Origin: Flavobacteriaceae bacterium
Lineage (GTDB): Bacteria; Bacteroidota; Bacteroidia; Flavobacteriales; Flavobacteriaceae
Reading direction: 5' to 3'
Length of the DNA stretch: 32,037 bases
Assembly (NCBI GenBank): GCA_024643425.1
Contig: JAHEMY010000018.1
Span: 1 to 32,037, forward strand
Shown here: positions 5,177 to 32,037 of the stretch, piece after piece
How the letters are laid out: each line of letters starts with the position of its first letter
Numbering within the stretch: position 1 is the stretch's first letter
The notes under the pieces: generated by a model
The model's database searches: none
Seen by the model: the letters and a program-made list of their open reading frames with translations, nothing else
Told to the model about the DNA's origin: nothing
Made by a program: the position numbers and the translations under genes

Positions 5177-5941
5177 TTATATTGTGATTTTTAAAGTGTC
5201 ATAGGCTAAATGTACTCCTTTCGGGAGCTGGGCTTCCACTTCGTCATGAAAACCTAATAAATGACTGATATGTGTGAAATAGGTGGTTTCGGGCTGCAAT
5301 TCATTAACTAATTCAAGTGCTTCCTCTAGGTTTAGATGAGACTCATGCGGTTTAATTCGTAAAGCATTCAAAACCAATACTTTCAATCCTTTTAGCTTTA
5401 ATCGCTCTTTAGAAGTAATGGTTTTAACATCGGTCAAATAAGCAAAATCGTCTATTCGAAAGCCCAAGACAGGAAGTCCTGCGTGAGAAACCTCCACCGG
5501 AACTACCGTTTTTCCTCCTAATTCAAAGGTTGTTGTTTTATCGATGAAATTAATTTCGATCGCAGGAGCTCCGGGATATTTGTTCACCGTTTCGAATATA
5601 TAGCCAAAACGTTGTTTTAAGGCTTCAAACACACGCGATTCACCATAAAAGGGCAAATCCCCTTGTCGGAAATTAAAGGGCCGAATATCGTCAATGCCCG
5701 CTATGTGATCGTTATGCTCGTGAGTAAGTAAGACCGCGTCGATTTTTTTCACGTTCTCTCGAAGCATTTGCTGACGAAAATCGGGACCGCAATCGATAAC
5801 ATAAGTGTAATCATCCCATTCCAGTAGGATCGATACACGAAGCCTTTTATCTTTTGGATTGGGGCTTAAACACACAGGGTGTTGACTTCCAATAATCGGA
5901 ATTCCTTGAGAGGTACCAGTACCGAGAAAAGTTACTTTCAT
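5177..5941 (-). CDS. MBL-fold metallo-hydrolase (PhnP-like)
   Basis: A 254-residue metallo-beta-lactamase-fold hydrolase. From the chosen start it reads MKVTFLGTGTSQGIP, then a zinc-binding LTHEHNDHIAG motif (H74, H76, D78, H79), an Asp in YLTDVKT and a late THISHLLGFHD segment. These are the usual metal ligands of PhnP/RNase Z-like phosphodiesterases. PhnP itself cleaves cyclic phosphodiesters; the substrate here is unknown. The open frame runs upstream to 6022, but the first 27 residues are not family-like, and the MKVTFLGTG start at 5941 fits the fold exactly. The upstream region also serves the divergent pntAA gene. A possible -7 box (GATTTTTG on the minus strand near 5953-5960) has one mismatch. 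It heads a two-gene operon with the one-TM protein. Confidence 0.87.
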   Translation of the reverse strand: MKVTFLGTGTSQGIPIIGSQHPVCLSPNPKDKRLRVSILLEWDDYTYVIDCGPDFRQQMLRENVKKIDAVLLTHEHNDHIAGIDDIRPFNFRQGDLPFYGESRVFEALKQRFGYIFETVNKYPGAPAIEINFIDKTTTFELGGKTVVPVEVSHAGLPVLGFRIDDFAYLTDVKTITSKERLKLKGLKVLVLNALRIKPHESHLNLEEALELVNELQPETTYFTHISHLLGFHDEVEAQLPKGVHLAYDTLKITI

Positions 5942-27171: not shown

Positions 27172-27762
27172 CTAGTTGGTCAATATAATGTTATGTTTTT
27201 CAATTACTTTGCGCAAATTGATCAGCGCGTAGCGCATACGACCCAACGCGGTGTTAATACTGACGCCGGTTTGCTCGGAAATTTCTTTAAAACTCATTTC
27301 CTTATACATACGCATAATTAACACTTCTTTTTGATCGTCCGGTAACTCTTCTATGAGCCTGCGGACATCACTTTCGACCTGATCTTTGATAATTGCTTTT
27401 TCCGCATTCAGTGCGCCATCACTCAACACCGAGAAAATATTGAAATCGTCATTATTTTCAAACTTCGGCATCCGATTATTCTTTCTAAAATGATCAATAA
27501 CCAAATTATGAGCGATGCGCATAACCCAAGGAAGAAACTTTCCTTCTTCGTTGTATGCTCCACGCTTAAGGGTTTTGATAACTTTAATAAAGGTGTCTTG
27601 AAAAATATCCTCAGCTACGTCTCTGTCGTAAACTTTAGAATATATAAATCGGAAAATTCGGTCTTTGTGGCGGGTGATTAATTCACACAGTGCAGCTTCG
27701 TTACCTTTCATGTAGGCGCTCACTAAAAGCGCATCACAACTTGTGCTTTGTTTCATATCCAT
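27172..27762 (-). CDS. ECF-type RNA polymerase sigma factor
   Basis: A 196-residue sigma-70 family factor with only regions 2 and 4. Region 2 spans about 27-95 (ITRHKDRIFRFIYSKV, then the AEDIFQDTFIKVIK core-binding part and FLPWVMRIAHNLVIDHFRK for -10 recognition). Region 4 spans about 138-187 (LPDDQKEVLIMRMYKEMSFKEI, then the helix-turn-helix EQTGVSINTALGRMRYALINLRK). No anti-sigma gene is next to it, which is unusual for ECF factors. An alternative start is the methionine at 27756 (third residue). It is divergent from uvrA. The leader of about 94 nt contains an 8-bp hairpin just before the start. Confidence 0.92.
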   Translation of the reverse strand: MDMKQSTSCDALLVSAYMKGNEAALCELITRHKDRIFRFIYSKVYDRDVAEDIFQDTFIKVIKTLKRGAYNEEGKFLPWVMRIAHNLVIDHFRKNNRMPKFENNDDFNIFSVLSDGALNAEKAIIKDQVESDVRRLIEELPDDQKEVLIMRMYKEMSFKEISEQTGVSINTALGRMRYALINLRKVIEKHNIILTN

Positions 27763-28115: not shown

Positions 28116-30893
28116 TTGCCCGAAATCGCCTTAGATACAAAGAAAAACATCATTATTCAGGGAGCAAAGCTCCACAATCTGAAAAATATTTCCGTGGCCA
28201 TCCCACGAAATAAGTTGGTGGTGATTACAGGTTTATCGGGAAGTGGAAAATCATCCCTTGCCTTCGACACCCTTTATGCGGAAGGACAACGTCGTTATGT
28301 TGAAAGCCTTTCATCCTATGCTCGTCAGTTTTTAGGTCGATTAGACAAACCTAAAGTAGATTCGATTAAGGGAATTGCACCGGCCATTGCCATTGAACAG
28401 AAGGTAAATGCAACCAATCCTAGGTCGACAGTTGGGACTTCAACAGAAATTTACGATTACCTCAAATTACTTTACACCCGAATTGGAATTACCTACTCTC
28501 CGGTTTCCGGTGCTGTGGTAAAAAAAGATACGGTCACCGATGTGATCCAATTTGTGAAAACCTTTCCTGAAGGTGAAAAACTATTGCTCTTGGCGCCCAT
28601 TCATTTAGAAGAAGGTCGGAGCATGGAAAATAAGCTTCAGACCCTTGCGCAACAAGGTTATGCTAGAGTAAAAATGGCAGGGCAAGTGCTGCGTCTCGAC
28701 GAATTAAAAGGATCCTCTTTTCCAAAAGATATCCAATTGGTGATCGATCGAGTAATCACTCAAGACAATGAAGATTTCTGGAACCGCTTGGCCGATGCGG
28801 TAGGTATGGCATTCTTTGAAGGCAAAGGGGAATTATTTTTGGAAAATCTTTCTACAGAAAAAATCAAAGAGTTCAACAACCGCTTTGAAGTGGACGGTAT
28901 AACGTTTCTCGAACCTAATGTACATCTGTTCAGCTTCAACAATCCTTATGGGGCTTGCCCTACTTGTGAGGGTTACGGCGATGTGATTGGAATCGACGAA
29001 GACCTTGTTATCCCAAATACAGGGCTGTCTATTTATGAAAATGCGGTCTTCCCTTGGCGCGGTGAAAGCATGGGGTACTATCGCGATCAATTGGTGAACA
29101 ATGCCTATAAATTTGACTTCCCCATTCACAAGCCTTGGTTTCAACTTACGGATGAACAAAAACAATTGGTTTGGGAAGGCAATAAGCACTTTGAGGGTCT
29201 CAACGAGTTCTTTGCTCAATTAGAAGCTAAAAGTTATAAAATTCAAAATCGCGTAATGCTATCGCGTTATCGCGGTAAAACAAAGTGTAGCACTTGCAAC
29301 GGGAAGCGCTTACGGCCTGAGGCTAGTTTTGTTCGTATTGGTGGGAAATCGATTCAAGAATTGGTAGAGCTCCCACTGCACAAAGTAGCAGCTTTTTTTA
29401 AAGAGCTGGAATTGAACGAGTACCAGCAGCAGGTGGCAAAACGCTTGTTACTTGAAATTAACAACCGACTTCGTTTTTTAATGGATGTTGGATTAAGCTA
29501 CTTAACCCTTAACAGAAAGAGCAACACCCTTTCGGGAGGTGAATCCCAGCGAATTAATTTAGCTACTTCGTTAGGAAGTAGTTTGGTAGGTTCCATGTAC
29601 ATCCTCGATGAACCTAGTATTGGACTGCATCCCAAGGATACCGAACGACTTATTAGTGTCCTTAAATCGCTAAGAGATTTAGGGAATACCGTCATTGTTG
29701 TGGAGCACGACGAAGAAATTATGAAAGCGGCCGATGCTATTATTGATATCGGACCGGAAGCAGGAACCTTCGGAGGTGAAATCGTGGCTGAGGGAAGCTT
29801 CGATGAAATCCTTAAGAGTGATTCCCTCACAGCTCAATACTTGGATGGACGGAAAAAAATTGAAGTCCCGGCAAAACGACGTTCATCAAAAGGTTCCATA
29901 AATATTATTGGGGCACGACATAATAATTTAAAAAACATCGACGCTACCTTTCCATTAGGGGTATTTACGGCGGTGACCGGAGTTTCCGGTAGCGGAAAGA
30001 GCACCTTGGTTAAAAAAATCCTCTACCCTGCCCTCATGCGCCATATTGGAGGCTATGGTGAAAAGCCAGGTCAATTTACCGAACTAAAAGGTGATCTGGA
30101 TAAAATTAAAAGTGTCGAATTTATCGATCAAAACCCTATCGGACGCTCGAGCCGTTCGAATCCGGTAACCTACATTAAGGCTTACGACGACATTCGCAAT
30201 TTATATGCGAACCAAAAGTTAAGTGATATTAGAGGATATCAAGCCAAACACTTCAGTTTCAATGTGGACGGCGGACGATGCGAAACTTGTAAAGGCGATG
30301 GCGAAGTGACCATAGAGATGCAATTTATGGCCGACGTGCATTTGGAGTGTGATACCTGTGGTGGAAAACGCTTCAAAAAAGAAGTGCTTGAGGTAAAGTT
30401 CCACGATAAAAGTATTCACGACATCTTGACATTAACCGTTGACGATGCCATTGCATTCTTTTCGCTTCATAACCAAACAAAGATTACCAACAAACTTCAG
30501 CCATTGCAAGATGTTGGATTAGGCTATGTGCAATTAGGCCAGAGCTCTTCTACCCTTTCCGGTGGTGAGGCACAACGTATAAAACTGGCGTCTTTTTTGG
30601 TGAAAGGAGATACTAAGGACAAGACCTTATTTATTTTTGATGAACCTACTACGGGGCTTCATTTTCATGATATTCAAAAATTATTAGCCTCCTTCTACGC
30701 TTTATTGGATAAAGGACATACCGTGATTGTTGTGGAGCACAATATGGATTTGATCAAGTGCGCCGATTTTATTATCGACCTAGGTTTAGAAGGCGGTGAA
30801 AATGGCGGATCCATCATCGCTCAAGGAACTCCTGAGGAAGTTTCAACATCGGATACTTCCTTTACAGCCAGTTATTTAATAGAAAAGATTTAG
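28116..30893 (+). CDS. uvrA: Excinuclease ABC subunit A
   Basis: A 925-residue ATPase that finds DNA damage in nucleotide excision repair, working as a dimer with UvrB. It has two ABC modules. The first has Walker [10 protein letters not shown] (39-47) and signature [10 protein letters not shown]. The second has GVSGSGKST (about 621-629) and [10 protein letters not shown]. Zinc-binding cysteine pairs are seen in ACPTCEGYG with KCSTCNGK, and in RCETCKGDG with CDTCGGK. The [14 protein letters not shown] segment is typical. The start is TTG at 28116: no earlier ATG exists in frame, no ATG occurs in the first 100 codons, and the promoter excludes much longer forms. The stop lies in a 14-bp tandem duplication. 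Complete and presumably functional. Confidence 0.96.
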
Positions 30894-30936: not shown

Positions 30937-31845
30937 ATGGAAATACTATTCACGGCTCTTTTTATAATGTTCACTTCACTAGGATTTTCACAAGATTACA
31001 TTCCTATGTTGCAAGAAGGCAATTCATGGAATGTTGATATTTATTATGAGCCTTTCAAAGGCGATTCCTTTACTATAACCCGAGAACTTTCTCTTGGGGA
31101 AGTAGTGGAAATTGATGGTCTCGAATACTACCAAACTTTGGTGTCTGGAAATGAAAGCTGCTTGCTCCGTGAGGATAATGGCTATGTTTACAAATACAAC
31201 GATTTTTTGCAAGAAGAATTTCTCTTATTTGACTTTAGCCTAGAAGTAGGTGATGTTTTTAATGTGATGGAGTCGGCGTATTCTGGGTTTCCATCTTTTA
31301 GTTCGTGTGCATCTCCCGATCTTCTATCTTGGGTATATGAAACTGAACTACATGTCGAAAGTGTAGATTATGTCGATATTGCGGGGCAAAATCGAAAAGT
31401 AATTACTTTTGAAGAATATTTTTCAGGAGGTCAGTATGCTTGGATTGAAGGAATTGGAAATTGGACAGGTTTTGATCTAATGTCTGAAACAATAGATGTC
31501 TCTGGCACTACAATCATTGCGTGTTTCACCACCGAAGGTGAAACCTATTTTATGTTTGGAGCGACCTCGTGTGATAATACCACCTTACACACTTCAGATT
31601 TTCTTAAGAATGAAATAAAACTCTTCCCTAATCCACTAACAGAAACTTCTGTACTACAATTTCCTCCAGGCTTTGGCATTGATCAAATAAAAATTTATGA
31701 TGTAACCGGAAAAGTTTTTGCAGATGAGCGCATCGATAAACTAGTTCATCCAATTGCTGCGAAAAAATTTTCTTCAGGTTTGTATTTGTATCAGCTCTAT
31801 TCTAGCGGTAACTTGATCAAAACAGACAAGTTTGTTGTAAACTAA
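30937..31845 (+). CDS. T9SS-exported protein of unknown function
   Basis: A 302-residue secreted protein. A signal peptide covers about 1-19 (ends LGFSQ). The central domain (about 20-220) begins DYIPMLQEGNSWNVDIYYEP, a start that I have seen in other flavobacterial T9SS proteins of unknown role, and contains three cysteine-bearing loops. The last 78 residues or so, beginning IKLFPNPLTETSVLQF and ending NLIKTDKFVVN, form a type A T9SS sorting domain. The gene follows uvrA by 43 bases with no clear promoter. No enzyme motif was found. Confidence 0.82.
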   Translation: MEILFTALFIMFTSLGFSQDYIPMLQEGNSWNVDIYYEPFKGDSFTITRELSLGEVVEIDGLEYYQTLVSGNESCLLREDNGYVYKYNDFLQEEFLLFDFSLEVGDVFNVMESAYSGFPSFSSCASPDLLSWVYETELHVESVDYVDIAGQNRKVITFEEYFSGGQYAWIEGIGNWTGFDLMSETIDVSGTTIIACFTTEGETYFMFGATSCDNTTLHTSDFLKNEIKLFPNPLTETSVLQFPPGFGIDQIKIYDVTGKVFADERIDKLVHPIAAKKFSSGLYLYQLYSSGNLIKTDKFVVN

Positions 31846-31890
31846 GCTACTGCTTGATTTTAAGAAAACTTTAATTCTTTCTTTACTTTT

Positions 31891-31905
31891 TGGCACGCCA
31901 ATTGC
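31891..31905 (+). promoter_or_regulatory. Sigma-54 (RpoN) -24/-12 promoter
   Basis: TGGCACG (31891-31897), four bases, then TTGC (31902-31905) followed by TTT matches the sigma-54 consensus TGGCACG-N4-TTGCW at every key position, with a T-rich flank on the left. The C at 31905 as -12 predicts transcription from about 31917. It lies 45 bases after the T9SS gene and points away from it. Confidence 0.75.
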
Positions 31906-31916
31906 TTTAATTATAA

Positions 31917-32032
31917 CAGTTGCAGTTTTCGTGGTTGGTTACTGTAACTCAAAAAATACAAAGTTTTTTGGTTGGTTAGTTTTTTTGAATTGCCCGTCGC
32001 ACCTTCTCAAACGGTCGGCGGGTTTTTCTTTT
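31917..32032 (+). ncRNA. Candidate sigma-54-dependent small RNA of about 115 nt
   Basis: The stretch runs from the predicted RpoN start to an intrinsic terminator. The 5' end forms an 8-bp stem (AGTTGCAG 31918-31925 with CTGTAACT 31942-31949, one G-U pair) that begins at the predicted first bases. A U-rich single-stranded middle follows, then the terminator stem. TGGTTGGTTA occurs once in the first loop and once in the middle part. There is no ATG. A GTG-started frame from 31931 stays open to the window edge, so a short coding leader cannot be fully excluded, but the terminator would cut it. Confidence 0.5.
31993..32032 (+). terminator. Intrinsic terminator at the window end
   Basis: CCCGTCG (31993-31999) pairs with CGGCGGG (32016-32022), with one G-U pair. 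The stem continues with ACC/GGT after a one-base bulge, closing a 9-base loop, and is followed by TTTTTCTTTT. It is a strong plus-strand terminator. Confidence 0.8.
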
Positions 32033-32037
32033 GATAA

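Follow-up and report, generated by a model that had tools for sequence, protein, structure and literature searches.

Several sRNAs transcribed through sigma-54 are known, among them GlmY/GlmZ, Qrr and CrcZ. CrcZ and CrcY of Pseudomonas are sigma-54/CbrB-dependent decoy sRNAs which carry repeated short motifs. Within the Flavobacteriaceae, Table 2A of a study of F. psychrophilum assigns a sigma-54 (SM4) start to the non-coding RNA Rfp36 (strain OSU THCO2-90, start at 840245), whose co-expression cluster holds genes for gliding and for exported proteins of unknown function (PMC9723704). FopS and GibS of Bacteroides thetaiotaomicron are short, partly multicopy sRNAs with a conserved element that is bound by the RNA-binding protein RbpB, while homologues of classical RNA chaperones are missing in Bacteroides (PMC11697453).

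The window analysed here is a whole contig (G000:C71) of 32,037 nucleotides from a member of the Flavobacteriaceae, with a candidate gene of this kind located in its last 150 bases. Judged from its sequence and that of its relatives, the region 31917-32032 is very probably an independent non-coding RNA gene of approximately 115 nt that is transcribed by sigma-54 and possesses its own terminator. It would belong to a class of common design (a sigma-54 promoter, a hairpin from the start site, an exposed UUUUGGUUGGUUAG and a terminator) that is widespread in the family.

Promoter, RNA structure and coding content

The sigma-54 -24/-12 promoter element TTGGCACGCCAATTGC is situated at 31890-31905 (+). 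Here TGGCACGCCAATTGC (31891-31905) shows 0 mismatches to the sigma-54 consensus, matching GG-N10-GC with the correct spacing, and its bases are conserved in relatives, in agreement with the consensus element reported in an earlier note on this DNA. The sequence TGGCACGNNNNTTG was found to have one intergenic copy in the whole 2.74-Mb source genome, namely that of the window, with two other copies lying in coding sequence. Promoter bases outside the search pattern were also kept among the 128 sequences retained from the fetched loci (a purine at -20 in 100%, T at -28 in 91%), the start-site bases in these same sequences being a pyrimidine at +1 (89%) and a purine at +2 (93%). Counting 12 nt from the -12 C places +1 at 31917; the start is predicted at 31917-31918 (+), 12-13 nt past the -12 element, with 31918 (A) as the likelier of the two positions owing to the +1 pyrimidine and +2 purine of the relatives.

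The source genome encodes RpoN (PF04552, E 7e-51) and gave three strong matches to activator ATPases (PF00158, each E 3.5e-67 or better). No common activator-binding site was found upstream of the promoters beyond a weak TGATATCA in some sRNA loci; this sequence is over-represented there (6/44 against 0.2 expected) and is a possible candidate for an activator site. Elsewhere in the source genome, two further sigma-54-like sites lie 20-34 nt before lipoprotein-like genes that do not carry the 3' tag described below (L234, L248).

Folding of the predicted RNA showed a 5' hairpin (31918-31949, +) with a 9-bp stem that pairs 31918-31926 with 31941-31949 and follows the perfect -24/-12 element at a distance of 12-13 nt. 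A like fold was obtained for the uvrA-linked relatives L190-L193 and L064. The earlier note had set the start at the base of an 8-bp stem-loop; the position is upheld, with the hairpin beginning next to the calculated 31917, but the stem has 9 bp rather than 8. Its loop contains GGTTGGTTA (31933-31941, +), which nearly repeats the 3' element, and GGTTAC was found in the RNA body of 13/42 other members compared to 0.5 in shuffles. The 3' element itself, TTTTTTGGTTGGTTAG (31964-31979, +), is conserved and common to the 3' ends of sigma-54-driven mRNAs; as UUUUUUGGUUGGUUAG it is predicted to be single-stranded between hairpin and terminator, in a U/G-rich strand containing GGTTGGTTAG at 31970-31979. 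An intrinsic terminator follows at 31992-32032 (+), with a stem at 31992-32023 (31992-31999 paired with 32016-32023, plus an inner 3-bp extension) and a T-rich tract to 32032 (-17.0 kcal/mol, z -3.7); a G/C-rich terminator with a T-run had been described in the earlier note as well.

The whole 31917-32032 RNA folds with z = -3.9, a value reached by 0/200 shuffles, and members of the class out-fold their shuffles with a mean z of -2.3. The outer helix starts at +1 to +3 in 37/42 dereplicated members, the shuffles giving a mean of 14 and a maximum of 21. Applied to 53 members in a plain MAFFT alignment, RNAalifold returned no structure; members this divergent cannot be aligned by sequence, and the structure was therefore studied in a close subset. 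Covariation in one branch (20 sequences) was such that 8/16 pairs had changed on both sides, which 0/500 shuffles reached.

Whether the transcript might instead be a small protein gene, or the leader of the next gene, was considered from its reading frames and neighbours. The predicted RNA contains no ATG, in line with the previous claim that no start-ATG frame lies between promoter and terminator. One GTG frame (31931-32035) stays open for at least 35 codons, up to the end of the contig, and favours a small protein; however, two of the closest relatives (L190 and L191) do not have that GTG, an ATG before the 3' element is absent in 68/128 members, and the body lengths of members are spread evenly across the three frames. 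The protein-coding reading was rejected on these grounds. As for a leader, the next gene in homologous loci has its own sigma-54 promoter 3' of the sRNA terminator, none of the homologous loci read has a protein gene extending across the terminator, and the RNA cannot be a leader in the main genomic setting (see below) because both neighbours lie on the opposite strand. Either version is hardly credible. The class was found to keep its structure beyond sequence, to have no conserved reading frame and to possess its own terminator. The reading of the locus as an RpoN promoter with a structured and apparently non-coding transcript behind it, ended by a terminator, is supported by the conservation of promoter, hairpin and terminator, together with the presence of rpoN and activator ATPases in the genome.

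Distribution and genomic settings in Flavobacteriaceae

BLAST within the family showed that other genera share this arrangement downstream of uvrA. A pattern consisting of the promoter, 31-91 nt and GGTTGGTTA was found approximately 150 times, in 128/397 Flavobacteriaceae genomes (89/237 genera), compared to 4 matches for the reversed pattern used as a control; the genomes were sampled at one per species, the counts are not corrected for phylogeny, and a few matches of each search are false, lying inside coding sequence. The arrangement was also found in many named genera, among them Winogradskyella, Algibacter, Psychroserpens, Bizionia, Lacinutrix, Formosa, Kordia, Nonlabens, Aequorivita and Mesonia. 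A chance origin was rejected, given the 128/397 genomes against 4 control matches and the +1 helix in 37/42 members against 14 in shuffles.

No Rfam family matches the sRNA class. A covariance model (R1) built from the branch linked to SPFH genes gave a weak match to the window (28.1 bits, E 0.011 over 656 kb), which does not prove common descent of all members or of both settings, and matched the uvrA-linked relatives L154 and L191 with 33.2 and 27.2 bits. Matches to R1 were obtained in 7/396 genomes, the model being too narrow for the order. One model match (G419:C1:94261-94336, minus strand; 35.7 bits, E 9e-4) is in another family of the same order, and the class may reach beyond Flavobacteriaceae. 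Tandem sRNAs of two to four copies were observed at L119, L171, L177, L104 and L088, with four copies in Lacinutrix algicola, four in Kordia algicida and three in Olleya; every copy has a separate sigma-54 promoter and 3' tag.

Neighbours of the sRNA fall into two main, conserved synteny patterns. The main setting consists of an SPFH/band-7-like or DUF819-like gene, the sRNA, and a hydrolase or AlkB-like gene, with both neighbours on the opposite strand; these gene names are putative and come from reading the sequences. The setting of the window type consists of uvrA, sometimes a gene for a protein sorted by the T9SS, the sRNA, and then a sigma-54 gene for a secreted protein of approximately 400 aa. 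On the window itself, the conserved upstream neighbour uvrA (28116-30893, +) is followed by a gene for a T9SS-sorted secreted protein (30937-31845, +; Por_Secre_tail, PF18962) and by the sRNA, an order shared with L191 and L064, where a similar protein was found in that position. Divergent to uvrA, an ECF-type sigma factor gene is situated at 27172-27762 (-), with one in the same place in L190, L192, L193 and L194.

Members of the family of secreted proteins of approximately 400 aa (e.g. L193:3232-4410, minus strand) have a sigma-54 promoter and the 3' tag at gene level, and are characterized by the motif YIFVEGGVEFSVFPDGQFDFVY and a basic RGRG-type tail. No Pfam or NCBIfam match was obtained for this protein, and its predicted structure (mean pLDDT 33) was of no use. 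The family is present in 313/397 Flavobacteriaceae genomes, being found in 124/128 sRNA-positive genomes compared to 189/269 others (Fisher p 2e-11, not corrected for phylogeny). A copy of this tagged gene was not found in the source genome, which is probably but not certainly due to the contig ending at 32037.

The shared 3' tag and the proposed action of the RNA

The 3' tag UUUUGGUUGGUUAGU with its terminator was found not to be unique to the sRNA. The 15-mer TTTTGGTTGGTTAGT was identified in 82/119 genomes, mostly with one to three copies each, and almost never in reversed form. Sorting of its first 30 occurrences placed 4 in coding sequence and 26 in non-coding sequence. Twenty of the latter are on transcripts with a sigma-54 promoter, comprising 9 sRNAs and 11 mRNAs; of the remaining six, one ends a sigma-54-type gene whose start lies beyond the sequence, and five are without a recognised sigma-54 promoter. 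Tagged sigma-54 mRNAs encode the secreted protein of approximately 400 aa, a relative of it of approximately 200 aa, and lipoproteins. Furthermore, at L006 and L206 the slot that follows uvrA and precedes the secreted-protein gene is taken by a sigma-54 gene for a protein of approximately 200 aa, which carries this tag too, so that sRNA and mRNA alternate in one slot and have the 3' element in common.

At two loci of the source genome (L041, L043), GGTTGGTTAGTTAGTT stands directly before the terminator hairpin of a gene for which no sigma-54 promoter was recognised; the tag is thus not confined strictly to the sigma-54 regulon. In the 5' UTR of the sigma-54 gene at L016, the leader hairpin GGAAAGTAAATGGTTACTTCC contains TGGTTACTT, as do many of the sRNAs in their loop. 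A literature text search for the tag sequence gave only unrelated papers among the matches listed. The most telling feature of the class, absent from the earlier note, is this GGUUGGUUAG tag common to the sRNA and to sigma-54 mRNAs, and its sharing among sigma-54 transcripts suggests a common control circuit that has not been described before.

When an activator ATPase fires, the sRNA would be made at the same time as those sigma-54 mRNAs, encoding secreted proteins and lipoproteins, which carry the same 3' GGUUGGUUAG tag. Many members, that of the window included, have a further GGUUGGUUA or GGUUAC in the hairpin loop. The sRNA would most likely compete for the binder of the tag, be it a protein or another RNA, and such competition may tune the stability or translation of the regulon mRNAs, the sRNA serving as a feed-forward decoy. 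We infer that the sRNA probably acts through its GGUUGGUUA sites, either as a decoy or as a base-pairing partner; the decoy step taken alone is put forward tentatively, as something short of an even chance. The wider proposal, in which mRNAs and sRNAs of a sigma-54 regulon share the 3' tag UUUUGGUUGGUUAG read by a post-transcriptional factor, and the sRNAs are coding-free members which titrate that factor, is offered with equal reserve.

Three other accounts of the RNA were considered. It might be a base-pairing sRNA acting in trans, whose exposed UUUUUUGGUUGG or loop pairs with the 5' ends of mRNAs, in the first place with the ACCAAA loop of the 5'-UTR hairpin of the neighbouring sigma-54 gene for the secreted protein. 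Stretches complementary to the sRNA are indeed present in 5' UTRs of this neighbour, namely CAACCAAAAAA (11 nt, L190), CCAACCAAAA (10 nt, L005) and ACCAAAAAA (L064, L083, L089). However, over all tagged mRNAs complementarity was no better than for shuffled UTRs, except for some secreted-protein genes, and in several relatives it covers just 5-6 nt. Pairing with the ACCAAA loop is attractive in some loci but not general, and this account appears rather doubtful. The GGUUGGUUAG tag could alternatively serve sigma-54 transcripts as a module for their 3' end or for termination, such as the site of a processing or stabilising factor, in which case the sRNA would be defined by its hairpin and the tag would not be its working part. 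Consistent with this, the tag stands directly before terminators on mRNAs and sRNAs alike and is found on a few non-sigma-54 genes too. Against it, the tag is far better conserved than the hairpin sequence (partly an effect of selection, as members were chosen by the tag), and termination cannot explain the near copy in the hairpin loop of the window. We regard such a module as unlikely.

A functionless relic of a decayed mRNA, retaining the promoter and 3' end of a sigma-54 gene for a protein of approximately 200 aa after loss of the coding sequence, would fit the tagged gene with its sigma-54 promoter that occupies the same slot in other genera (L006 and L206), and the L006 terminator is similar (CCGTCG..CGGCGG). 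Yet relatives have retained the +1 hairpin, the promoter is still perfect, and dozens of genera have the same class at a locus unrelated to this one, making a relic highly improbable.

Post-transcriptional control in Bacteroidota is poorly known, and a tag common to an sRNA class and to regulon mRNAs gives a direct handle on it, usable as bait for the missing RNA-binding factor. The sRNA also offers a way to learn what sigma-54 responds to, and what it controls, at the cell envelope of flavobacteria. Its class is present in many cultivable marine genera and has no Rfam family. Should the titration of a tag-reading factor prove true, the phylum would possess a circuit of sRNA and RNA binding, although those of its members that have been studied are without homologues of the classical RNA chaperones.

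Comparison with known systems

GlmY and GlmZ of enterobacteria, to which the earlier note had likened the transcript, are sigma-54-linked sRNAs as proposed here, but differ from the sRNA of the window in setting and length; no sequence or structural Rfam match to them was obtained, even at E 10, and we know of no GGUUGGUUAG tag in either. CrcZ/CrcY resemble the present sRNA by analogy, through its proposed decoy mode. CrcZ has many CA-motifs for Hfq/Crc, whereas the class described here has one or two GGUUGGUUA/GGUUAC sites, and there was no Rfam match at the window to indicate homology to CrcZ/CrcY. Flavo-1 RNA (RF01705) is likewise a small flavobacterial RNA; its covariance model gave no match at the sRNA locus, and in a Kordia algicida record (L111) Flavo-1 lies at 5271-5359, away from the sRNA of that record.

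Compared by description, FopS and GibS are similar in being short sRNAs of Bacteroidota, in part multicopy, that share a conserved element, but are not driven by sigma-54, the FopS promoters being of a canonical housekeeping type and GibS having another, non-canonical motif (PMC11697453). The words sRNA, small RNA and non-coding are absent from a comparison of sigma-54 regulons (PMC12316311). A flavobacterial precedent is Rfp36 of F. psychrophilum, which stands against the earlier statement that no flavobacterial counterpart was known. As far as its published description goes, it is likewise a sigma-54 non-coding RNA in a member of the Flavobacteriaceae, differing in that neither a tag nor a target is given for it in the main text (PMC9723704). 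The sigma-54 sRNA as a kind is therefore already known through Rfp36, while the class described here and the tag it shares with sigma-54 mRNAs appear to be new.
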